Virus record (IMG/VR): IMGVR_UViG_3300025736_006128 | Coordinates: 1 to 37,868 of that record | Reading direction: 5' to 3' (one strand) | Length of the DNA stretch: 37,868 bases | DNA from: a virus | In this document: one piece after another, positions 1 through 37,085 of the stretch | Layout of the letters: each line of letters begins with the position of its first letter | Numbering within the stretch: position 1 is the first letter of the stretch | Program-made: the position numbers and the translations under genes | The notes under the pieces: model-generated | What the model saw: the letters and a program-made list of their open reading frames with translations, nothing else | Databases searched by the model: none | Told to the model about the DNA's origin: nothing

Positions 1-941
1 GCCGTCAAACGAACCCCCGTCGGCGGTAGCGGTGCCTGGCGCATGGTCACGCCCTCAATATTCTCATGGTCAAAATAAACAAAATACGTCGCCCGGTTAT
101 ATGTCCCCTGCGCGCCCATCATTTCAAAAATCAACTTAAACTTACCATTCCCGGAAGCAATGCACCGCCCGCCCGCGAAATCAAATACCTGCACATCATC
201 AAAAAATTCCAGCGGCGCAAACGTTCCCGAAACCGCCCTGTCCGGGCTCAACACATTATCGCCACCGCCGCCCTGCGAAAGCATATACCGGTGCGGATTT
301 AACAAACACATCGGGCTGCCATTTTCCAGGCGCTCGATACACCACAAATACGCGCCCCCTGAATCCGTGAAATTTACGTCAAACTGAAACTCAGTCCCGG
401 AAAAATGCCACGGGTCCCCACTGCTGCCGCTGCCGCCGGTACGATTCAGAATCGTCAACCCCGCCACCTGCGGCTTCACCGTATTCGCTGGTTTGTAAAT
501 CCGCCCCACATCCAGCGACTCCCACGGCGGCAGCTCGAAATACACATGCATCCGTGAACTGCTGCTGATTTCCCGAAACGTTTTATCCGCGCCATCCTTT
601 TCCCGTGCCGAAATCCTGAAATAATACGTACCCGCCCGGAAGCCGTCCCAATAAAACACCTCATTTTGAAAATCCTCCCAGCTGGTAAACGGCCCGGAAA
701 AAAACTGCGTACTGCAGTTGCGATACCAGTCCAGATGCACCTCTCCGGCAAACTCCCAGTCGTCCGATTGATACTTCTCCGGCACCCAATACCGCCAACT
801 AAATTCGCCACTATTACACACCACCGGATCCGACCACGTGCCCGCGCCCCGACTAATCGCATTCATCCCAATCGGCTCCGCGTACATCCCGAAAAGCACC
901 GCCGGCAGTAAAAAAATAACCCATAAATAAACTTTTTTCAT
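1..941 (-). CDS. Secreted protein of unknown function, C-terminus cut by window edge
   Basis: The reading frame is open from an ATG at 941 to the left edge, giving about 313 residues with no stop. The first 20 or so residues (MKKVYLWVIFLLPAVLFG) form a good signal peptide: two lysines, a hydrophobic core and small residues. The body is rich in W, Y, G and D and looks like an extracellular beta-rich protein. The last visible residues (PLPPTGVRLT) resemble the start of a fibronectin type III-like repeat. A GGGGTG ribosome binding site lies just upstream of the ATG. A TATAAT on the minus strand at 1012-1017 could be a -10 box, but I see no convincing -35. It diverges from the plus-strand gene at 1131. 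No family is recognised; it may be an exported adhesin-type cargo gene. Confidence 0.7.
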   Translation of the reverse strand, partial: MKKVYLWVIFLLPAVLFGMYAEPIGMNAISRGAGTWSDPVVCNSGEFSWRYWVPEKYQSDDWEFAGEVHLDWYRNCSTQFFSGPFTSWEDFQNEVFYWDGFRAGTYYFRISAREKDGADKTFREISSSSRMHVYFELPPWESLDVGRIYKPANTVKPQVAGLTILNRTGGSGSSGDPWHFSGTEFQFDVNFTDSGGAYLWCIERLENGSPMCLLNPHRYMLSQGGGGDNVLSPDRAVSGTFAPLEFFDDVQVFDFAGGRCIASGNGKFKLIFEMMGAQGTYNRATYFVYFDHENIEGVTMRQAPLPPTGVRLT

Positions 942-1060
942 CAGACACCCCGCATTAGTTAACCCTAATAAATACAACACATAAAGCCCCACGCCCCCTA
1001 ATAATGCAACCATTATACCGAAAAAAAATGCACTTTTTTTGCCTGACCCGTAAAAAAGCC

Positions 1061-3296: not shown

Positions 3297-3533
3297 CTAT
3301 TCTTTTACCACACCCGCATCATGCTTACCAAACTTAAAACCCACGACCTTGCCATCACTACCAAGCACCTTAGTACCCAGCACAATCCCGAGCAATACCA
3401 ACACATTCGCCGGGATGTCCAGCAGCTTTTTTTGGACAATACAAAGCACCATCCAGGTCAATACCACCAGAAACGTCACGCCAACCATTATCAGCCGTCC
3501 CGATGATAGGGTACCATCAAAAAATCCACGCAT
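3297..3533 (-). CDS. Small two-span membrane protein
   Basis: This encodes 78 residues. Two hydrophobic segments are visible, at about 13-33 (RLIMVGVTFLVVLTWMVLCI) and 38-55 (LDIPANVLVLLGIVLGTKVL), with a charged C-terminus (GFKFGKHDAG). It is the last gene before the terminator and follows another small membrane protein. Size and topology fit a holin-like or accessory phage membrane protein, but no family motif is seen and the lysozyme is at the other end of the window. Confidence 0.65.
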   Translation of the reverse strand: MRGFFDGTLSSGRLIMVGVTFLVVLTWMVLCIVQKKLLDIPANVLVLLGIVLGTKVLGSDGKVVGFKFGKHDAGVVKE

Positions 3534-3536
3534 CTT

Positions 3537-3818
3537 TTACCCCGCAATCTTCTGCCGTTTCGCAATCACCAAATTTTTGAAAGCGAAAAACGAAACCAGC
3601 AACACCACCGCCATCACCGCCGCCAAAGAACCATCACCCACCAGCGCCGCCATTCCGCAACTCACCACAATCACCAGCATCAGCCCGATAACCGCCACCA
3701 TCGGCTTCAGCATCAGCCGCGGCCGAATCTGACCCGGGTGTTTCACGTACAGCGCAAGCCAGCCCAGCATATAACCACCCAGCAGCATCATCAGCGCATA
3801 AATTAATCCGTATACCAT
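3537..3818 (-). CDS. Small three-span membrane protein
   Basis: This encodes 93 residues with hydrophobic segments at about 3-25, 39-60 and 64-82, and a basic C-terminus (KNLVIAKRQKIAG). It lies 3 nt downstream of the cohesin gene and 3 nt upstream of the next membrane gene, so it is cotranscribed with both. Function is unknown; a holin-like or envelope-anchoring role is possible. Confidence 0.65.
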   Translation of the reverse strand: MVYGLIYALMMLLGGYMLGWLALYVKHPGQIRPRLMLKPMVAVIGLMLVIVVSCGMAALVGDGSLAAVMAVVLLVSFFAFKNLVIAKRQKIAG

Positions 3819-3821
3819 GTT

Positions 3822-4244
3822 TTACCCCTTCACCGTTAGAGTTATCACCGCCACCGGCACCTCATCCGCCGGCGCCGTCACCGTTACCGTGTCATCATTC
3901 CAGGTCACATCCGCCTCCTTGCCCGTTTCGCCCTGCACCGTATCCGGTACCAGCGTCAAGTCATGGGTTCCCGCCTTCAGCGTTGTGAAATCAACCTCCA
4001 GAAGCAGGTATCCACCCACCGCCACGCCATTATCCGCATTCGTATAACCCAGCATCAGGTTACCCTGAAGACCATTCACCAGCGCCGCATTCTCATGCGC
4101 GAAAACACCCTGTTTCCGGATGTCACCCACCTGCAAAGCCGCCGGGTCATACCGCAACCGAAAGCCCACCGTCTTCAGCGGCAGCTTATCCAACTGCAAC
4201 CGGACCTCCACCGTAACCGTCTGTCCAATCGAAAAACTATTCAT
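3822..4244 (-). CDS. Cohesin-like domain protein
   Basis: This encodes 140 residues from the ATG at 4244, which overlaps the upstream dockerin gene by 8 nt (ATGAATAG). Nearly the whole protein fits a cohesin-type beta-sandwich: FSIGQTVTVEVRLQL, then TVGFRLRYDPAALQVGDI, a central MLGYTNADNGVAVGGYLLLEVDF, and a closing DDTVTVTA strand. Known cohesins bind dockerin domains with high affinity and calcium dependence, mostly in cellulosome scaffolds. No signal peptide is visible, although its dockerin partner has one. The frame is open upstream to 4418, so a +1 shift in the preceding A6 run would fuse the two products. A different carbohydrate-binding-like beta-sandwich is the main alternative. Confidence 0.7.
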   Translation of the reverse strand: MNSFSIGQTVTVEVRLQLDKLPLKTVGFRLRYDPAALQVGDIRKQGVFAHENAALVNGLQGNLMLGYTNADNGVAVGGYLLLEVDFTTLKAGTHDLTLVPDTVQGETGKEADVTWNDDTVTVTAPADEVPVAVITLTVKG

Positions 4245-4914
4245 TTTTTGCCATCCCAAAAAGTGAGTCAAATTCCACTTGGTCCCACACGTCAACATCC
4301 CCGTCAGCATCAAAATCAAATTCCGGATTGTAGCGCGTTGACTGCGTCGTCGTCCCAAAAGCCACGTCAAACGCCGCCTGGTCAAACACCCCGATAATCC
4401 CGTCATGGTCCGCGTCACCAGTCACGAATAGCTCAAACGCGTAAGCCGCACCCGTGCTCAGCTCAACCACGCATTCGCCACCATACGCCATCACCCTCGG
4501 CAAACGCACCAAAACCGTATCACCCGGCGCCCCCAGAATATCCGCGAACAGCTTCCCGTTAATGTACACCGAAGCCGACCCATTTTCCGGCACATAAAAC
4601 TCCAGAGTATTTTTCTCATAACTGACCGCGAAAATATCCCGCGAAATGATGGATGAAAACCCGCTTTCGTCCCCGGAAAAATTAAAAGCCGTCACCGCGA
4701 AATGCGACAACAGATTCAGGCTGTCCGGAATTTCCCAGCGCCCCGAATCCTTGGCGGCGCTACCCACCGGTTTCAGCGCTTCCGATCCGCTTCCGGCATA
4801 CAGTTTGTACCCGGCCAGATCCGCTTCAACATTCGAATTCCATTCCACAAAAATTCCCGCGCCAGCCGTGCTGAAAAAAAATAAAATAAAAATTGGAATC
4901 CATAATTTTTTCAT
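4237..4914 (-). CDS. Secreted protein with Fn3-like and type I dockerin domains
   Basis: This encodes 225 residues. Residues 1-19 (MKKLWIPIFILFFFSTAGA) are a signal peptide. Residues 22-95 resemble a fibronectin type III-like domain (VEWNSNVEADLAGYKLY ... FAVTAFNFSGDESG). A second beta-rich segment follows. Residues 166-220 form a dockerin type I domain with two complete 12-residue calcium loops: D167/D169/D171/D178 (DADHDG) and D200/D202/D204/D211 (DFDADG). Dockerins bind cohesins, and the next gene encodes a cohesin-like protein, so the pair may form a complex. The last codons contain an A6 run just before the stop. An exported host-surface or virion-appendage role is inferred only. Confidence 0.8.
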   Translation of the reverse strand: MKKLWIPIFILFFFSTAGAGIFVEWNSNVEADLAGYKLYAGSGSEALKPVGSAAKDSGRWEIPDSLNLLSHFAVTAFNFSGDESGFSSIISRDIFAVSYEKNTLEFYVPENGSASVYINGKLFADILGAPGDTVLVRLPRVMAYGGECVVELSTGAAYAFELFVTGDADHDGIIGVFDQAAFDVAFGTTTQSTRYNPEFDFDADGDVDVWDQVEFDSLFGMAKNE

Positions 4915-4922
4915 AACTGTTC

Positions 4923-5204
4923 CTATGAATTTTTTTTCAATTCTTCCAGAATGGTTTCGATTCGCCCCAGCCGCCCCTCAACCAGATTCCAAAGTTTGTT
5001 ATGCGAAACTTCCAGGGCATGAAGAACCTTTCCCAGCGCATCAAAAGATTTTTCCAATCCCTCAACCCGGACCGTCACCTTGATAAGCTCGTCGCACGGA
5101 CAATCATGCGCCTTCCTTTTGCGTAACCCGTCGTTCACGTATGCGCCCAGGAATAAACAAACCACACTCGACAGCACCGTAATCATAATCATTGTCGCAT
5201 CCAT
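4923..5204 (-). CDS. Single-span membrane protein with coiled coil
   Basis: This encodes 93 residues. One transmembrane segment lies at about 5-23 (MIMITVLSSVVCLFLGAYV), followed by a basic stretch, a CPC motif and a long amphipathic helix (about 40-93) with regular V/L spacing that fits a coiled coil. Similar layouts occur in small phage membrane proteins such as spanin or XhlA-like components. The gene sits just upstream of the dockerin gene. Function is not established. Confidence 0.65.
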   Translation of the reverse strand: MDATMIMITVLSSVVCLFLGAYVNDGLRKRKAHDCPCDELIKVTVRVEGLEKSFDALGKVLHALEVSHNKLWNLVEGRLGRIETILEELKKNS

Positions 5205-5387
5205 TCACGAATTTCCCCTAATTCCAATGTAAGTACAATAAACTAAGTCAATTACAATGCAAGACATACATTGTTCAATAATTGTGCCAGCCACCAGACC
5301 AACCGGACCGCCGCGGCAATACATCCCGGCACACCACCATCACCCCCCACCCGCACCTGATATGCCTACGCGCGCGTTATACGCAAA

Positions 5388-5460
5388 ATTGCCGAAAAAT
5401 TGCCGCAAATTGCCGCTAAATTGCCGCTTAAAATTACCGGCAATTACCCGTAATTACCGC
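5388..5460. repeat. Helically phased ATTGCCG/ATTACCG heptamer array
   Basis: ATTGCCG begins at 5388, 5399, 5409 and 5420, spaced 11, 10 and 11 nt, about one DNA helical turn. It is followed by ATTACCG (5433), CGGCAATT on the opposite strand, and two further ATTACC copies. This looks like an iteron or multi-operator array. Confidence 0.7.
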
Positions 5461-5477
5461 CCTCAAGAAACCCTTTA

Positions 5478-5608
5478 AATATTAACATTAGTCAGCTAAT
5501 GTTAATATTATTAAATCCCCCTTTGAAGGGGGTGGTTTTGCCACCGGCAAAAGTGGGGGATGTTTCTTGCCAAGTCACCCGGGAACGCCGATCTCCGCAT
5601 CGGCGCAT
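5478..5608. repeat. Composite E-A-B repeat
   Basis: E (5478-5509) is a perfect palindrome with 14-bp arms around TCAG (AATATTAACATTAG and its complement). A is at 5514-5564 with a TTTTGCC/GGCAAAA hairpin. B is at 5578-5608. Pyrimidine-rich tracts follow. Confidence 0.85.
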
Positions 5609-5726
5609 ATCTTTTTCTTTTTCTCGGCAGCTCTTATCTTTTTCTTTTTAATCTAATCCACCCAACCGTGGAGTTTTGCGCTCTTTGCAAAAACTCCGAG
5701 TTTAATGGCAAGTGTTTTTCTTGCCG

Positions 5727-6128
5727 TTAAACCGCGCACCTCACAAACTTCAACGCCACCACCGAATTCACCGGATAACCACCCATCCGCAAGTTCTCCT
5801 CAATCTCATCCGTTAGCAACTGCCCCGTAAAATACGTCCCCGGTGTTTCGGCATACCTGTAATACACCGATATTGGGGCCGGATGCCCATAACCATCCAC
5901 CCACCCGGCCAGCGTATCCAGCTTCGCATTCGTCAGATCCGCGTTATGAATGCGGATATTTGCCAGCGCCGTTTCGGTCGCCTCTTTGGGGCTGTAATAC
6001 ATTCCCACCTTACCCGTCTGCTTCACATACGAATCCGAGCCCCGGCTCCAGTTCCAATCCACATACTGAACCTCATTCTCATCAAAATCCAGCGTAGTCG
6101 CCCCGTTCACCACTCGTAAACAAACCAT
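5727..6128 (-). CDS. Probable tail-associated protein, unknown family
   Basis: This encodes 133 residues from an ATG with AAAAGGA 7 nt upstream. It is soluble, with probable beta strands (MVCLRVVNGATTLDF; APISVYYRYAETPGTYFTG) and a segment NIRIHNADLTNAKLDTLAGW. Placed between the beta-helix spike gene and the dockerin genes, it is probably a distal tail or spike accessory protein. I recognise no family. Confidence 0.6.
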   Translation of the reverse strand: MVCLRVVNGATTLDFDENEVQYVDWNWSRGSDSYVKQTGKVGMYYSPKEATETALANIRIHNADLTNAKLDTLAGWVDGYGHPAPISVYYRYAETPGTYFTGQLLTDEIEENLRMGGYPVNSVVALKFVRCAV

Positions 6129-6628
6129 ATCAAATCCTTTTTAAAATTCCCCCTTTGAAGGGGGTGCCCCTGCCAACGGCAGAGGTGGGGGATGTTCTTT
6201 ATCTCTTTTCAAACACCTCAACCCGTCAGAAATGGGGGACGTTTTTCTTTTCCCCAATAATTCGTGTCATGTCGAGCGTAGTCGAGACACGACACCGCTT
6301 TGCAACCTTACACCCCGACAATCGCTCCGCGTAAGGTTCGACCGCACTTCCGAAACGCCCCCATGCTGGGATAACTACCCCTCCAGGCAGCAAACAGTCC
6401 CTTCATGCAATCTGACGTTGCAATCTGTGGGGCTTGTACCGTCCGTCCGGCTCTATCTCTTTTCCAGCACCTCGCCCCCTCCCATTCCACCTTTGAAGGG
6501 GGTGGCTCCACCCTTGGTGGAGACGGGGGATGTTCTTTATCTCTTTTCTGACTCCGTACGGGCAGATTCCATATCTGCCCCCTTCTTTTCTTTAAAAACT
6601 CCTTAAGGCAAGGGCTCCTCTTGCCGGC
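6129..6628. other. Repeat-filled intergenic region
   Basis: A copies are at 6145-6197 and 6484-6534, and a C copy (TGTCGAGCGTAGTCGAGA) at 6266-6293. Between them are degenerate hairpins such as GGGCAGAT/ATCTGCCC near 6559-6582. Open frames on either strand here are low-complexity translations of the repeats; I see no gene. Confidence 0.7.
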
Positions 6629-7825
6629 CTATTCAGACGCCCACGCCCCATTCTCATTCTCCAGCCACTGCCCGAAAACCCCCGTCAAATGCACCCGACT
6701 CCGCGACACCAGCGTATACCCCACCCGTGTAATCGGAATCTTCGTCAACGTCCGCGTCGGACTCCCCACGTTTACCGTCATCAAATCCCCGAACTCCGCC
6801 ATCAAATCCTGCATTTCCGCTTCCAGACTGATTTCAAAAATTCCAAACGCAAAAATCGAATACAGCCGGTTCTGCAGCCGCGCCACCGTCATCGAATCAC
6901 TCAGGCTCCACTCCAGCGCCCCCACCGACCACGCACTCGGCCGCGCGAACAAAACCCCGTCAGCCGTAAAGGCAAAATTTCCGTCAGCGCTTAGATTTGT
7001 TCCGGCCTGATATAATGGCGAATCCGCATCCTTAATATTAAAATCCTCCGAACCACTGGCCACACTCACAAAACAATTCGCCGCCGTTTTACTGTCCTGG
7101 CTATTTGACCCCGGCGCAGTCGTATCCCCGCCGACATTGTAATCGCTATCCGCATGAAACGTCCCCGCGAACGCCGCCGTGCTTTGCCCCACACACACAT
7201 TGTTTTTCGCGTAAACCGTTCCCGAATATTGCCGAATACCGGTCGCCCCGTCAAACACCGTGTTATTGTAAACATACGCCGCCACCACGGAAGCAATATT
7301 AATCCCGTAACCCGTATCGACGTAAACAATATTATTCACCACCGTCACCGTTATCGCGGAATCATCCAGCTTAATCCCCAACCCGTCAGCCGAACCTTCC
7401 CCGTAAATAATGCACGAATCAATCCGGATGTCCGGGTCAGCGATTGCCCCCACGCCATACACATTTATCGCCTGGCAGGCCCCGGTCGCACTGCCCGAGT
7501 TGAACTGCAGCCCCCGGATCCGGATATGCGCTTCCTGAACCGTAAATATATTCGACAGCGCGCCGGTATAGTCAATCGTAAACCCCGAACCCAGCGAGGC
7601 GTCATGCCATTCTGTTTCCATCGCGTGAATATCGACATAATACGCCGGATTAGTGGCAAACGAATTAATCACCACCCCGCTGTCCATCACCGCATCGTCA
7701 TAACATTCCAGTTCGTGATACACACCGGCCACCTGCAGGTTTTTCCCTTCCGTCGCTTCCCACACCCGGAAATCAGAATAATCCCGCCCCACCGCCGTTC
7801 CAATCGTTACCGTTTCAACCGCCAT
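6629..7825 (-). CDS. Right-handed beta-helix tail spike-like protein
   Basis: This encodes 398 residues from an ATG preceded by a GGGGGTGGTGG stretch. Residues about 90-230 show the short strand-turn repeats of parallel beta-helix proteins (IRIRGLQFNSGSATG; IRIDSCIIYGEGSADG; TVVNNIVYVDTGYGINI; AYVYNNTVFDGATGI; TVYAKNNVCVG), with N-rich turns. The last 90 residues differ and end in VHLTGVFGQWLENENGAWASE. Phage beta-helix proteins bind or degrade host surface polysaccharide. The start overlaps the upstream gene by 11 nt. No catalytic residues can be named, so enzyme activity is open. Confidence 0.75.
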   Translation of the reverse strand: MAVETVTIGTAVGRDYSDFRVWEATEGKNLQVAGVYHELECYDDAVMDSGVVINSFATNPAYYVDIHAMETEWHDASLGSGFTIDYTGALSNIFTVQEAHIRIRGLQFNSGSATGACQAINVYGVGAIADPDIRIDSCIIYGEGSADGLGIKLDDSAITVTVVNNIVYVDTGYGINIASVVAAYVYNNTVFDGATGIRQYSGTVYAKNNVCVGQSTAAFAGTFHADSDYNVGGDTTAPGSNSQDSKTAANCFVSVASGSEDFNIKDADSPLYQAGTNLSADGNFAFTADGVLFARPSAWSVGALEWSLSDSMTVARLQNRLYSIFAFGIFEISLEAEMQDLMAEFGDLMTVNVGSPTRTLTKIPITRVGYTLVSRSRVHLTGVFGQWLENENGAWASE

Positions 7826-10942: not shown

Positions 10943-12518
10943 CTACCCCCTCAAAAACGGCACATAATAATCCACCATACTTTCCGAACCCAACAACTCC
11001 GCCGGACTCGCCTGCAAATCATTCGACTGATCGTGACCCTTATTTTCCGCGTCCGTACAATCCCAGGCATAATGCACCATAAACGCATTAAAAGGCTGCA
11101 ACCGCCGCACCGTCGGATTCCCAATCACATCCGGCGTCACCAATTCAGCAGCCACATACTCCGCCCATTCCGGATGCAAAACCATCAGCCGGAACTTGCC
11201 CGAAATCCCCTGCGCCATAAAAGCAATCCCATGTGGCAGCAGCGTCATAATCGCCTCCAGCACCGTAATCTGCGCCGTCCCCGTGGCCATCTGCTTCGCG
11301 AAGCTCAGCGTCAGCGCGTCGTTTTTCGTCAACGCCTGGCACACATTAAACGTCCCGCCAACCGTACCCGGCGGCTTTTCCGCTTCGTCCACTACACTGC
11401 TGGTCAAGTTCACATCAATCTGGCTGTCCGGAATCCCCGCGTAATCGTGCAGCAGTTCATAAATAATCTGCGGCAGCGTTTTCGCCACAAAATTCACCGC
11501 CACATGAAACGCCAACGTATCCCCCGCCGTCGGACTCGTCCAGTCCGCGCTGGCAATCTTGACATGGCTATCCGTCGCATCCGTCACATCATAAAAATCA
11601 CTGGCCGTACTCCCTTGAATATCCGGAATATTCGGCCCCGTCACCGTAAACGTAGTGCTGCTGTCCATGCGAATACCATATTCCCCCGGAAACGCCCCCG
11701 CATACACCGTAATTCCCGTCAAACTCGTACTGGCCGCATCATCCCAAACCAGCGCCGTTTCCATCTGCCCCTGAAAATTCGCCATCTTCGTCGGCGTGGG
11801 ACTGGTGCTGATAATCCGTAACGGCGCACTCAGCAGCAGGGCATGCATATTGTCCAGCCGCAACGTAGCCTTACCGCTCCCCAGCTCAAACGCCTCCCGC
11901 GCCACCCCCCGATAAACTTCCACATAATTAGCAGCATCCGCATTCAGCCGCAACCGCACGCTCACCTCCTGCCCGGCCACCGGCAAACTACTCACCACAC
12001 TGCCGGCCGCATAGCCATCCGTTAGGTTTGGACTAAAATTAACCGTACTGCCCACAATACTGGAAATCGTCACCTTTTCACTATTTGTCCCGTCGCTGAG
12101 CACAATCACTTCACTCGCCTGAAAATCCAGCAGCCCGTCTTCCAGCGTCAGCGCCCCCGCCGTTGCAATCACAGCACTGGCCAGAATCCGCTGCACCTCG
12201 CGGAACTGCCCCCCGGCCCGCCCGCCAAACGCGTCAAAGCCCTCATTCGGATTACTAAACGTAATCGTCAGCGGCCGCAAAACCATTGAATCATTCGCCG
12301 TTCGGATTACTAAACGTAATCGTCAGCGGCCGCAAAACCATTGAATCATTCGCCGTCGGTGAAATAGCCGAGCCATTTTCAATAAACCCAATCGTTTCAA
12401 TCCCGTTTTCATCACCCAGCAAAATCGCCTCACCATCCGGGTCCAGCACCACCTCAACCATAAAGTACGACGCCGGAAAAAGCGTTGCCGCCCAGGGACT
12501 ATCAGCTCGTATACCCAT
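10943..12518 (-). CDS. Distal tail/baseplate protein, frame broken by a 55-bp tandem duplication
   Basis: Two frames belong to one gene: MGIRADSPWAATLF from the ATG at 12518, and the main frame ending at 10943. A 55-bp exact duplication at 12246-12355 shifts the frame; removing one copy gives 506 continuous residues (TANDSMVLRPLTITFSNPNE). The protein is large, beta-rich and Gly/Thr-rich with no transmembrane segment. A later part (ITVLEAIMTLLPHGIAFMA) and the NAFMVHYAWDCTDAENKG stretch resemble tail hub or baseplate proteins only by position. Its start follows the previous gene's TAG directly. The gene is probably intact in the real genome. Confidence 0.7.
12246..12355. repeat. Exact 55-bp tandem duplication
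   Basis: Positions 12246-12300 and 12301-12355 are identical. A length of 55 is not a multiple of 3, so the tail gene is frameshifted. A probable assembly artefact. Confidence 0.9.
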
Positions 12519-32482: not shown

Positions 32483-34632
32483 TCATATCAACCCACCATC
32501 CCGATCATCCTTAGAATACGGCGCATCATACGGCGTTTCCCGATCCCATTTATCCCGAACATCCTTATCCGTCTCCCACAGCGGAATCCGAATACACATA
32601 CAATTATGCACCGCAAACCCCTGCGCCACGTAACTTTCGTCACCGTCCACGCTTAAATTGTACACCGTGATCGCCGTGCGCTGTTCCCGCTCGATACGCG
32701 CCACCGGCACATCCATAAACTCAATCGCCCCGGCATGATTCCGAATCAGCTCAGCCACCTGCATCGGCGCCGAATGCCAATCCTTTTCCGAAACGTGAAT
32801 CACCCGATACCCTTCCGCCGTCAACTCCGCATCACGGGCCGCGTCCTGCGCCTGCCGGTTTTTATGCCAATAAGAACCATCATACTCCACAATAATCTTA
32901 TAATCCGGAATACAGATATCCGCGTACCGCGTCGTCCGTGCCGTCACAATTGGCAGTTCCAATACCGCACTCGGCCAAAACCGCTTAACCTCCCAGAACA
33001 CCCGTATTTGCGCCTGAGACGTCCGAATCCGACGGGCGCCAGGATGGTTCCGACAATACCGCCGCAATGACACCGACACCCGCTTTCGATTCGCAGCCGC
33101 CGCTTCCGGATGCGCCGTCCGCCAATGCAGCTGCATACTTCGCGCATAGCCCGGATTGCCACGATGAAACCGGCTCAGGCTGATTGACATCTTTATCCGC
33201 TCACCCGCCCGCGTATACCGCCGCCGCTGACTTTTCGCCATCCGTTGCCGCGTTACCGATGACGTTTCCGCGTGTTCTTCCCGCGTCACCTGGCTTTCGC
33301 ATGCCTGACTGCAAAACCCAACCTCAGTCCCGGCATTCCCTTTCCAGCGTGAATACGGAATCAACTTACCGCACTTCCGACAGCGCGTGGCCAGCACCCG
33401 CACCTTATCCCCAATATGAATATTCTCGGCCGGTTTCCATTGCCCGTTCACCAGCGCCTCATGATTCGGCGTCAACTTCACCGTCACCGCCCGCGGCACC
33501 GCATCCGCCCGATAGGGTTCAAGCACATACGCCACCCCCACCAGCGTCTGATTATAGGCGGAATTCACGTGCTTCTCCGTCACCACTCGATATTTTCCCT
33601 GATGCGTCAGCACCAAATCCCCAACCGCAATTTCGCGAATCTGCCGCCACCCATCCGGCGTTTTTACTTTTGTATAAGACGGCACGCAATGCGGATGCGT
33701 ATGCGTCACCGGCTGCGGCCCTTCACCCAACTTCCAGACCCGCCCCTCAAACTGATCGCATATCTCACACGCCCCGGCCGCGATACTCCATTCCTCAAAA
33801 TTCACCTCAGCCGCACGGGATTGCAAATCAAACGCCGAATTAATCATCAACGTGCTTTCGGACCGGGCAATCCGATTCCAATACCACATCTTGCCCTCAC
33901 CCACCTGCTTCCGCATGGCCCGCCCCGCCTGCAGCACACTTTTCTTGCCCTTAGCCATATCCAGCAACGTCTGGTGAAATCCCTCGCGCCATGAGGACTG
34001 TATCTCCGCCCGAATCCGAGACGCACCAACATCATACGCCGCACGGAAATACACATTATCCTGCTGCACCAACAGCCGCATCGCGTCAATTTCATCGTCC
34101 GTCATATCCGGCAGCTTATGCGCCTTCAACAGATTGACCGTCTCTGAAATTCCCACCGTGAACGACAAAAACATGTAGAAATTCCCACCGTGAACGACAA
34201 AAACATGTATTGCATCAATACCGCCGCCGGCACAACCGCCTGTTTCTGTTCCAGCTCACGCGTACCCAGAATATCCTCTTCCAAATCCAAAACGGCCGCG
34301 TCATAGCCCCGCTGAGCGGCTTTATTATAAACAAAAACGCGATCATCGTAACCGGGCACCGGTTCGCCAATCGCGTCAGCTCGCAACTCGTCCAGCGACG
34401 GCAAGTCCAGCACCTCAATCAGCCGCAGCTCAAACGCCTCAACCTTCTCAAATATCGCGTTAAAACAGTCCTTATTAATCTTCCGAATCTTTGGCCAGCG
34501 ATGTTTCCGCCCGGCCTGTTCCAGTTCCCACGCTGTCGGGTCCGTCGCATGTTTGCAGGCGATCGGCTTTTCCGGAATCAGCCCCTGCGTCAAGCTCAGT
34601 AATCGTAGTCCGGCTTCCCCCATAGAATCCAT
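32483..34632 (-). CDS. SPP1 gp7/MuF-type head morphogenesis protein with intein; frame broken by a 32-bp duplication
   Basis: Start ATG at 34632. A 32-bp duplication (34146-34209) splits the frame after VLMQYMFLSFTVGIS; removing one copy gives 705 residues. The intein (32603-33688, 362 residues) sits inside the C-terminal metal-binding motif. After splicing, 343 residues remain with CEIC ... THPHCMCIRIPLW, the Cys/His pattern of the Mu gpF/SPP1 gp7 family. These minor head proteins bind the portal and are packaged in the virion. The N-terminal half is helical and Lys/Glu-rich. It directly follows the portal gene, as is usual. Confidence 0.85.
32603..33688 (-). mobile_element. Intein with Vsr-like (EDxHD-type) homing nuclease
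   Basis: It starts at Cys1 (CVPSYTKVKTPDGW, block A) and continues with IREIAVGDLVLTHQGKYRVV; TPNHEALVNGQW is block B with the T-x-x-H motif. It ends in VYNLSVDGDESYVAQGF then AVHN, followed by Cys+1 (blocks F and G). The insert holds a zinc-finger pair (CRKCGKLIP ... FCSQACES), a basic NUMOD-like region, and a nuclease core PDYKIIVEYDGSYWHKNR with RDAEL and GYRVIHVSEKDW. The E-x-D-...-W-H-...-D order fits Vsr/DUF559 and EDxHD homing nucleases rather than LAGLIDADG. Confidence 0.88.
34146..34209. repeat. Exact 32-bp tandem duplication
   Basis: 34146-34177 and 34178-34209 are identical; the length is not a multiple of 3 and breaks the MuF-type gene. Confidence 0.9.
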
Positions 34633-34636
34633 CAGT

Positions 34637-36197
34637 CTACTCCGTCAGTAAATTATGTGCATTTTTTGCCGCAAATCGGGCATACGCCCGCCTCCGCAAG
34701 TCTTCAATCATCTCGTTCGTATTCATCGACAATTTAGCCGGCAGAATTTTTTTTCGTTGTAAATCTTCAACAACCTCGGCCGCCGACACCAGTCGTTCGT
34801 ATTCATCGACAATTTAGCCGGCAGAATTTTTTTTCGTTGTAAATCTTCAATAACCTGAGCCGCCGACACCAGGCCACAATCCAGCAACCAGACCGCACTC
34901 GCGATCTCTTTATTCGCCGCCTGTGAATTATAAAGCCGCGCCTTAGCTGTTTCAACCGCATCCTGCAGGCCGATTTCATCCCAGACAATCTTGAATTTCG
35001 TCCCGGCATACCCGGCAAAATTCAGCGCATACCAGATAATCCGGTCAATCGCCGGCTCCGTTGCCGTCCGATACCCCGTAATCGACTTAGCCAGCATCTT
35101 CCGCTGTTCCGTCGTCATCCGTTCAGAGGTGGACCATGAAAAACCAAAGAACGCCGGTGGTATCTCCGTCTTAGCCGCGAACATCTCCAAAATAGTCCGC
35201 ATCGGCACTTCCAAGGGCATCACATCCGCGTCCGCACCCAAAGTACTTATTTTAACAGTTCCACCCGGAGGCGCCACCGTATGCAGGTCCGTCATCTTTC
35301 CCATGCGCCGCTTCTGCATCAGTGCTTTTGTAGAAGCCTTCAATTTGTCCGACACCTGACCGGCAATTTCGTATGATTTCTTCATCCCCTCAATCGGATT
35401 ATTTATCGGAAAATTTCCCGGCTCAACCACCAGGAAGAACGACGGATCCCCCACCTTCTGCAGCTGATTATCAATAGTTTTTATTATCCGCTGAAACACA
35501 TTACCCACGAACGGCAATCCATAGAACAACGACGTTCCGGATGGCTGACCATTGCGTTTGTCTGGTGCCACCTGGTACACAAACTCCGGCCGGTCAAACG
35601 GCTTCACCCGCACCGCCCCGCGTTGAATAGAACCCAGCACCCAGCGGCCATCCACCTTCGCGAACCCCACCCGCTCCGAATTCGCATTCAGCAACCGATC
35701 CACGCCATTTTCCAGCGCCGTCGGCACCAGCTCCACAAAGCCGTTCCCCTGCTCCAGCCCTGAATCAATCGCCTGCGTCACCACATTGTGCATCCCGAAA
35801 TTCAAATCATTCACCAGCACCGTGCGCAAAAAGTCATCAACGAATTCCTGAGCCCGCGTATTCCCATCGCAATCAATCGAAAACGTCCCCACCAGGCGCT
35901 TAATCTTATTCACCCCAACATCTAAAATTGGCACCGACTCCCGCAGCACCCGAAACACCCGCCCCCGCACCCCGTTTGCCTTCAGCGCGCCATCCACTTA
36001 ATCTTATTCACGCCCACATCCAGAATCGGCACCGACTCCCGCAGCACCCGAAACACCCGCCCCCGCACCGCGTTCGCATTCAGCGCGCCATCCACACCAA
36101 AAATCTCTTCCAGCGGAGTTTCCCACGCCTTCGTCTGTGGCCCCAGCCCACCAGAACCCGCACTACTCGCGGCCTGTCGTCCTGCCGGAATTATCAT
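34637..36197 (-). CDS. Portal protein, frame broken twice by tandem duplications
   Basis: Start ATG at 36197 overlaps the upstream stop (ATGA). Duplications at 35899-36094 (98 bp) and 34713-34872 (80 bp) each shift the frame. Removing one copy of both gives 460 continuous residues from MIIPAGRQAASS to a stop at 34637. The middle part is portal-like: NKIKRLVGTFSIDCDGN, AIDSGLEQGNGFVELVPT, PSGTSLFYGLPFVGNVFQRI, and EIPPAFFGFSWSTSERMTTE before a long helix. Portals form the dodecameric DNA channel at one capsid vertex. The start of the MuF gene lies 4 nt beyond the stop. Confidence 0.85.
34713..34872. repeat. 80-bp tandem duplication with three mismatches
   Basis: Copies 34713-34792 and 34793-34872. 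The mismatches change VSAAEVVED to VSAAQVIED, a conservative strain-like difference. Confidence 0.9.
35899..36094. repeat. 98-bp tandem duplication with about eight mismatches
   Basis: Copies 35899-35996 and 35997-36094 near the start of the portal gene. Most differences are synonymous (for example ILDVGVNKIK is kept in both). Confidence 0.9.
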
Positions 36198-36557: not shown

Positions 36558-37085
36558 CTACAACTTCACCTCGCGTGACTTGAATCGCAACGGATCTAAA
36601 TACCGTATCCCCCAGGCCAAATCCTTCGCCCGGTTCGGACTATCCTGCCGCGCCCACCTGGAATTCAACATCTCGGCCGCCGCCAACTGATAATTACCCG
36701 CCTTCAACGCCGCTATCGTCTTCTTAAACCCCAGAAAACCCGCCATACCCATCTGATAAATCATTTCAACCACCACCGCACTCACCGCAATCGGCTGAGC
36801 ATGCAGCCACCGGTAGCGGCGCAAAACAATACGGACAATCCGCAATACCAGCACCCGAACCAGCGCCTCAGACACATCCACCGACAACCGTCCATCCACT
36901 GCCAGCCCCAAATGCTTCAGCGTCGTCAAACGAACCCCATGCCCAACCGTCGGATACCCGTTCGGGCAACTATACACCCACGAGCGAAACCCCTCATGTC
37001 GCAAAATACTGGGGATAACCATCATCAGAATCACCTCTTCCGATTCCGGATTCACGCCAATACTTGTTCCATCTTCCGCCCTCAT
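36558..37085 (-). CDS. GH24 (T4-type) lysozyme/endolysin with Cys at the catalytic Asp position
   Basis: This encodes 175 residues. ILRHEGFRSWVYSCPNGYPT then VGHG contains the family's E-x8-(D)-x5-T triad as E31, C40 and T46; T4 lysozyme has E11, D20 and T26 at the same spacing. The C-terminal half is helical (VVVEMIYQMGMAGFLGFKKT). The enzyme cuts the MurNAc-GlcNAc bond of peptidoglycan at lysis. The T4 D20C mutant is known to stay active, so this one is probably functional. No signal peptide is seen, so release should need the holin upstream. The start overlaps the holin stop (ATGA). Confidence 0.9.
   Translation of the reverse strand: MRAEDGTSIGVNPESEEVILMMVIPSILRHEGFRSWVYSCPNGYPTVGHGVRLTTLKHLGLAVDGRLSVDVSEALVRVLVLRIVRIVLRRYRWLHAQPIAVSAVVVEMIYQMGMAGFLGFKKTIAALKAGNYQLAAAEMLNSRWARQDSPNRAKDLAWGIRYLDPLRFKSREVKL

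Follow-up and report, generated by a model that had tools for sequence, protein, structure and literature searches.

The dockerin and cohesin genes in the window

The window, i.e. the whole stretch of viral DNA that was analysed (an IMG/VR record of 37,868 bases), comes from a tailed phage, since a portal (phrog_30703, E=7.8e-53), a major head protein and a tape measure are all clearly recognisable in it. Its late genes are transcribed from right to left, and at the far end of this operon, after the tail genes, lie two overlapping genes whose features, together with those of their neighbours, are as follows:

4923..5204, minus strand: upstream neighbour, 93 aa, with one TM segment and a coiled coil, possibly lysis-related (read from sequence)
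4237..4914, minus strand: gene 1, a secreted protein of 225 aa with an Fn3-like domain, an unassigned segment and a dockerin (open reading frame; relatives in G005 and L111)
4858..4914, minus strand: signal peptide, residues 1-19, MKKLWIPIFILFFFSTAGA (read from sequence; N-terminus hydrophobic in each of the three pairs)
4636..4857, minus strand: Fn3-like domain, about residues 20-93 (Fn3 of 5jip, and Pfam fn3 in relatives)
4426..4635, minus strand: segment without an assigned fold, about residues 94-163 (gap in alignment A4)
4252..4422, minus strand: dockerin, residues 165-221 (A4 profile against solved dockerins, best 2y3n_B, E=4.6e-11)
4381..4416, minus strand: first Ca loop of the dockerin, DADHDGIIGVFD (acidic residues as ligands at 1, 3, 5 and 12)
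4282..4317, minus strand: second Ca loop of the dockerin, DFDADGDVDVWD (acidic residues as ligands at 1, 3, 5, 9 and 12)
4237..4244, minus strand: 8-nt overlap ATGAATAG of the cohesin-gene start and the dockerin-gene stop (likely translational coupling)
3822..4244, minus strand: gene 2, a bare cohesin of 140 aa without an export signal (Pfam Cohesin, profile, structure model and Foldseek)
3537..3818, minus strand: downstream neighbour, a small membrane protein of 93 aa, starting 4 nt past the cohesin gene (read from sequence)
3297..3533, minus strand: second small membrane protein, 78 aa (read from sequence)

The sequence-only reading of this DNA had described an overlapping dockerin and cohesin gene at the end of a phage tail operon. 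The two open reading frames, viz. 4914-4237(-) and 4244-3822(-), and their overlap by 8 nt are confirmed, and the placement at the operon end also stands; however, the pair lies beyond the tail genes, among genes for small membrane proteins, and in its relatives it is found upstream of the terminase. The corresponding junctions in these relatives, which are described below, are a 4-nt ATGA overlap in one case (L111) and a distance of 7 nt from stop to ATG in the other (G005). A programmed frameshift fusing the two genes was considered and rejected, because the frame offset and the spacing vary between the three pairs (+1 in the window, past the stop in G005 and -1 in L111). No Pfam families were matched by the products of 4923..5204 (none above the cut-off), 3537..3818 or 3297..3533. 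The protein encoded by 3537..3818 has a holin-like appearance and may be a holin, and the neighbours of the pair are plausible candidates for lysis genes.

Characteristics of the two proteins

The dockerin protein carries a Sec-type signal, the cleavage of which is placed by eye between MKKLWIPIFILFFFSTAGA and the G that follows it; signal peptides in this work were judged by eye and from hydropathy. The signal peptide and the two Ca loops of the sequence-only reading are borne out, whereas its Fn3-like domain is weak when the window protein is considered by itself (E=0.19 to the Fn3 of 5jip) and is supported by Pfam fn3 matches in related proteins, with E-values of 3.1e-7 (L188) and 0.006 (L111). 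The segment of about residues 94-163 is missing from the G005 and L111 relatives in the alignment A4. Both 12-residue Ca loops are canonical in the window and in G005 (D/N ligands at positions 1, 3, 5 and 12), and those of L111 are also canonical except that its loop 1 has an S in position 5. The recognition face of the window dockerin is repeated internally (VFDQ..FD..FG and VWDQ..FD..FG), as is that of L111 (NLIDKM and NLIDKM), and such an internal repeat is a mark of dockerins that bind cohesins in a dual mode (PMC12484212). The window protein alone gave no match to Pfam Dockerin_1 (PF00404), whereas both of its relatives did so (28.9 and 23.6 bits against a cut-off of 22.9), and due to this its membership in the family is taken from profiles made with the relatives. 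Based on these profiles the protein is a predicted dockerin, and the type I label given to it earlier is put in doubt, as it resembles the type II-like 2y3n_B and 2b59_B at least as closely as type I dockerins. An AF2 model of the dockerin protein had a pLDDT of 35.6, and a Pfam scan found no enzyme domain on it.

The second protein had been read as cohesin-like, and it matches Pfam Cohesin (PF00963) with 26.3 bits against a cut-off of 24.1 (E=9.3e-6). Its structure model, made from a 3-sequence alignment, has a pLDDT of 74.6 and a pTM of 0.72, which is a moderate confidence, and lacks the first half of strand 1; two of the five models were good and three were poor. All 23 Foldseek matches of this model in the PDB at E<=0.001 are cohesin entries, and ranks 1-48 are occupied by cohesin or cohesin-dockerin entries (best E 2.8e-6), so that the fold check proposed with the earlier reading came out in favour of the jelly-roll of a cohesin. 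The best cohesin in VIA-align was 2jh2_A (Z 9.4, rmsd 3.7, 110 aligned residues); amid or below the cohesins, however, were a fibrillar-adhesin domain (Z 8.4) and the C-terminal domains of streptococcal antigen I/II (Z 8.3-7.8), and the family is thus not settled by the fold alone. It is the sequence match and the modelled fold taken together that identify the protein as a cohesin. An apparently extra C-terminal strand of the phage cohesins was considered as a donor strand; this reading was dropped, since in structural alignments the strand coincides with the last strand of solved cohesins, at their end. Only two viral structures in BFVD match the model at E<=0.001, and cohesin folds thus look rare among catalogued viruses.

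Presence of the same gene pair in two divergent phages

Relatives of the window phage were sought with an alignment of six portals, followed by a second portal search in bacterial genomes, and in total three pairs are at hand (window, G005 and L111). The first relative, G005 (IMGVR_UViG_3300037461_000445, 39.9 kb), has about a dozen structural and other proteins in common with the window at 19-42% identity; its signal-Fn3-dockerin protein (L088 12306-11731) is followed, 7 nt past the stop codon, by a cohesin-like gene. Directly downstream of the latter (L088 10160-11077, minus strand) is a gene whose product looks like a lipoprotein and contains a caspase domain (Peptidase_C14, E=8.7e-15). The second relative, L111, is a contig with phage genes from a Bacteroidota MAG (JAKQLB010000277.1), in which the pair is located at 5223-5771 and 5768-6232; this MAG contig could be misbinned. 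The portals of the three phages are 32-36% identical, and the order of dockerin followed by cohesin is the same in all of them. However, the genomic slot of the pair differs: in G005 and L111 it lies between replication-type genes and the terminase, just upstream of the latter and outside the head and tail genes, and yet the pair is intact in all three. With assumed gene counts, the chance of such adjacency in three of three phages is about 1e-5. A strongly hydrophobic N-terminus is present in all three dockerin proteins and in none of the three cohesins. Due to the identities of the domains and the retention of the pair in the same order in divergent phages, it is clear that this pair is a genuine, patchy phage module, and the earlier claim that both halves are neighbouring phage genes is well supported, the same pair having been found in related phages as had been suggested as a check.

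The three dockerins belong, by sequence profiles, to one family: each of them is recovered by a profile made from the other two, with E=6.3e-13 for the window protein from its two relatives and 3.1e-7 and 3.9e-13 for the other two, and the best matches of the three-dockerin profile (A4) among solved structures include 2b59_B (2.8e-8) besides 2y3n_B. By the same type of comparison the phage cohesins are much more divergent than the dockerins. The three-cohesin profile (A3) matches 3l8q at E=1.6e-6, and when the window protein is left out, every significant PDB match of the G005 and L111 profile is a type II-like cohesin, the five entries (among them 3l8q, 1qzn and 1zv9) having E-values between 9.5e-5 and 3.2e-4. 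A profile of the window and G005 cohesins recovers that of L111 at E=0.004. The window protein is missed by the G005 and L111 profile even at E<=1, hhalign of the cohesins gave a short local match only, and Pfam Cohesin does not detect the G005 and L111 proteins.

Close relatives of either window protein were found neither in viral contigs nor in GenBank phages. A Pfam Cohesin search of the 52 records behind related phage loci also found nothing, which is a weak negative, as the same search misses the G005 cohesin. Phage-type cohesins were absent from the 40 genomes searched in the phylum to which the Caldithrix MAG belongs, and among 296 genomes of the JAKQLB genome's phylum they were limited to that genome itself and three weak matches. 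Two of these matches are host cohesin-domain proteins, and the third, which falls in an apparent secreted serine protease, is probably due to chance.

Possible functions of the pair

Few known non-covalent protein pairs are as strong as cohesin and dockerin, which are a standard tool of synthetic biology. The explanation which in our view best accounts for the observations as a whole, and in which our confidence is about even, is that the two genes encode a phage cohesin-dockerin clip. The product of gene 1, with its Fn3-type domain and C-terminal two-loop Ca-binding dockerin, would be exported by its signal peptide, and gene 2, probably coupled to it in translation, would yield a cohesin without further domains that remains cytoplasmic. 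Binding between these two proteins is probable, and it would use the Ca-dependent interface that is standard for such pairs. Free Ca is scarce in the cytoplasm. Dockerins depend on Ca for their folding as well as for binding, as in the work on type II dockerins listed in PMC12484212. As the dockerin is exported and Ca-requiring and the cohesin is not exported, the clip would be gated by compartment: its halves should meet and close only after export or lysis, for which we see roughly equal chances for and against. Owing to their differing export compartments, the two proteins might also never meet in life.

The partner of such a clip may be the virion, which would thereby be dressed, or it may serve as a host-surface plug or a lysis accessory. 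Its likeliest use would be to fasten the secreted Fn3 protein to an item made in the cytoplasm, e.g. virions or released debris. The sequence-only reading had put forward that appendages are attached to virions or to the host surface, which may be among the uses of the clip. Attachment to virions specifically is a tentative proposal with a modest chance. General Pfam and PHROGs scans recognised no capsid-binding domain in either window protein, and the phage cohesins bear no other domain or conserved virion-attaching tag. That all three cohesins are without an export signal is compatible with their synthesis in the cytoplasm along with the virion, and equally with other roles. It is rather unlikely that a compartment-gated clip acts on the virions themselves, the cytoplasmic cohesin being made with the virion and the exported, Ca-dependent dockerin-Fn3 adhesin being picked up by the progeny only at lysis; if true, phage particles would be dressed non-covalently after their assembly.

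A different reading, to which we give a modest chance, is that the genes form a host-surface module (moron), in which the exported Fn3-dockerin protein docks onto cohesin scaffolds displayed by the host and changes its adsorption or superinfection, while the cohesin binds host or phage dockerins in the cytoplasm or upon its release by lysis. Secreted cohesin-domain proteins are present in Bacteroidota relatives (L185, Pfam 8.4e-12, and L186), cellulosome-like complexes are reported for Cloacimonadota, plausible hosts thus including groups with known cohesin-dockerin systems (PMC8542988), and the pair is outside the head and tail genes in G005 and L111. However, the presence of a phage cohesin immediately downstream in all three cases is left unexplained by such a module. 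The pair could also belong to the lysis region, with the cohesin reaching a periplasmic dockerin protein after a holin opens the membrane and helping to disrupt or tether the envelope. This accords with the surroundings of the window pair, which has a TM/coiled-coil gene on one side and genes for small membrane proteins on the other, with the signal-Fn3-dockerin gene of the unrelated phage L188, which comes right after membrane/coiled-coil genes and a DUF5675 gene, and with the amidase at the end of the late genes in the record G004; a role of this kind is nonetheless improbable, as the pair is away from lysis genes in G005 and L111, the window lysozyme is placed elsewhere (36558-37085) and L188 has no cohesin beside its dockerin. 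The reading to which we give the least weight is that the two folds have unconnected roles and are not binding partners. The phage cohesins are indeed highly divergent, and cohesin-like and dockerin-like modules are found beyond cellulosomes in many organisms, some of them without a known partner (Peer et al. 2009, cited in PMC8542988); but the strict adjacency in three divergent phages, the intact Ca ligands and the duplicated recognition face all speak against it.

Relationship to known cohesin-dockerin systems

The best profile matches for both phage partners are the cellulosomal type II pairs (A. cellulolyticus ScaB, 3l8q/1qzn; C. thermocellum, 2b59; B. cellulosolvens, 2y3n), with which they have the cohesin fold and the two-loop dockerin in common. 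However, the phage cohesin is bare, without a scaffold, an anchor or a signal peptide, it is 14-21% identical to type II cohesins over structural alignments, and the phage dockerin is borne by an Fn3 protein free of enzyme. A single cohesin was found in the window, and a cellulosome, with its scaffoldin of several cohesins and its dockerin-bearing enzymes, is not seen there. The cohesin domain of the secreted Bacteroidota protein L185 is matched by the phage profile, and the scaffoldin of Ca. Stygibacter (Cloacimonadota, PMC8542988) is of the same class; these proteins are large, exported and multidomain, whereas the phage cohesin is single-domain and predicted not to be exported, and they are a possible host-side source of the phage domain.

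Among phage proteins, T4 Hoc (PMC10385173) likewise uses Ig-type domains for surface contacts, but it attaches by a capsid-binding domain of its own, the place of which would here be taken by a separate non-covalent clip and an exported adhesin. The gene of L188 (IMGVR_UViG_3300047586_000066, 5953-6747, plus strand) resembles gene 1 in its signal peptide, Fn3 and dockerin (Dockerin_1 2.5e-10, besides the fn3 match given above); it is located in a much larger record (102 kb), and what follows it is not a cohesin but an Fn3-like protein of 92 aa without a signal peptide. The L188 dockerin domain has no match in GenBank phages. Gene 40 of Vibriophage VvAW1 (PMC3558961) is reported to be similar to dockerin type I proteins, with no cohesin reported. 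No published phage-encoded cohesin-dockerin pair was found in the literature searched, the coverage of which is incomplete. The modules are thus familiar and it is their arrangement that is new, viz. a minimal, viral and conserved two-gene pair. Such a pair would supply natural, minimal, single-domain cohesins, it would offer phages a new route to assemble or display proteins, and it would directly test how phages of cohesin-bearing bacteria meet those surfaces.

Other characteristics of the window

The window also encodes, at 3-1013(-), a signal-bearing protein of 337 aa that runs off the contig end and has no family match; it could be another secreted protein of the Fn3 type. Dense families of palindromic intergenic repeats are present (e.g. 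at 5514, 6146, 28435 and 28491: CCCCCTTTGAAGGGGGTG... and GGGAATGCCGATCTCCGTATCGGC), and no exact copy of the 24-nt repeat GGGAATGCCGATCTCCGTATCGGC was found in the genomes and viral contigs searched. Short tandem duplications are found at 12246-12355 (55 nt, 100%), 34713-34872 (80 nt, 96%) and 35892-36087 (98 nt, 89%), where reading frames of the tail gene and the portal end, and these frames appear to be split by them; the duplications may be due to assembly error or to real slippage, and the dockerin and cohesin genes are unaffected by them. The gene for a MuF-like head protein at 32483-34174(-) is broken by a probable intein, with matches to Intein_splicing (9.1e-8) and to a DUF559-type endonuclease domain (1.3e-7).
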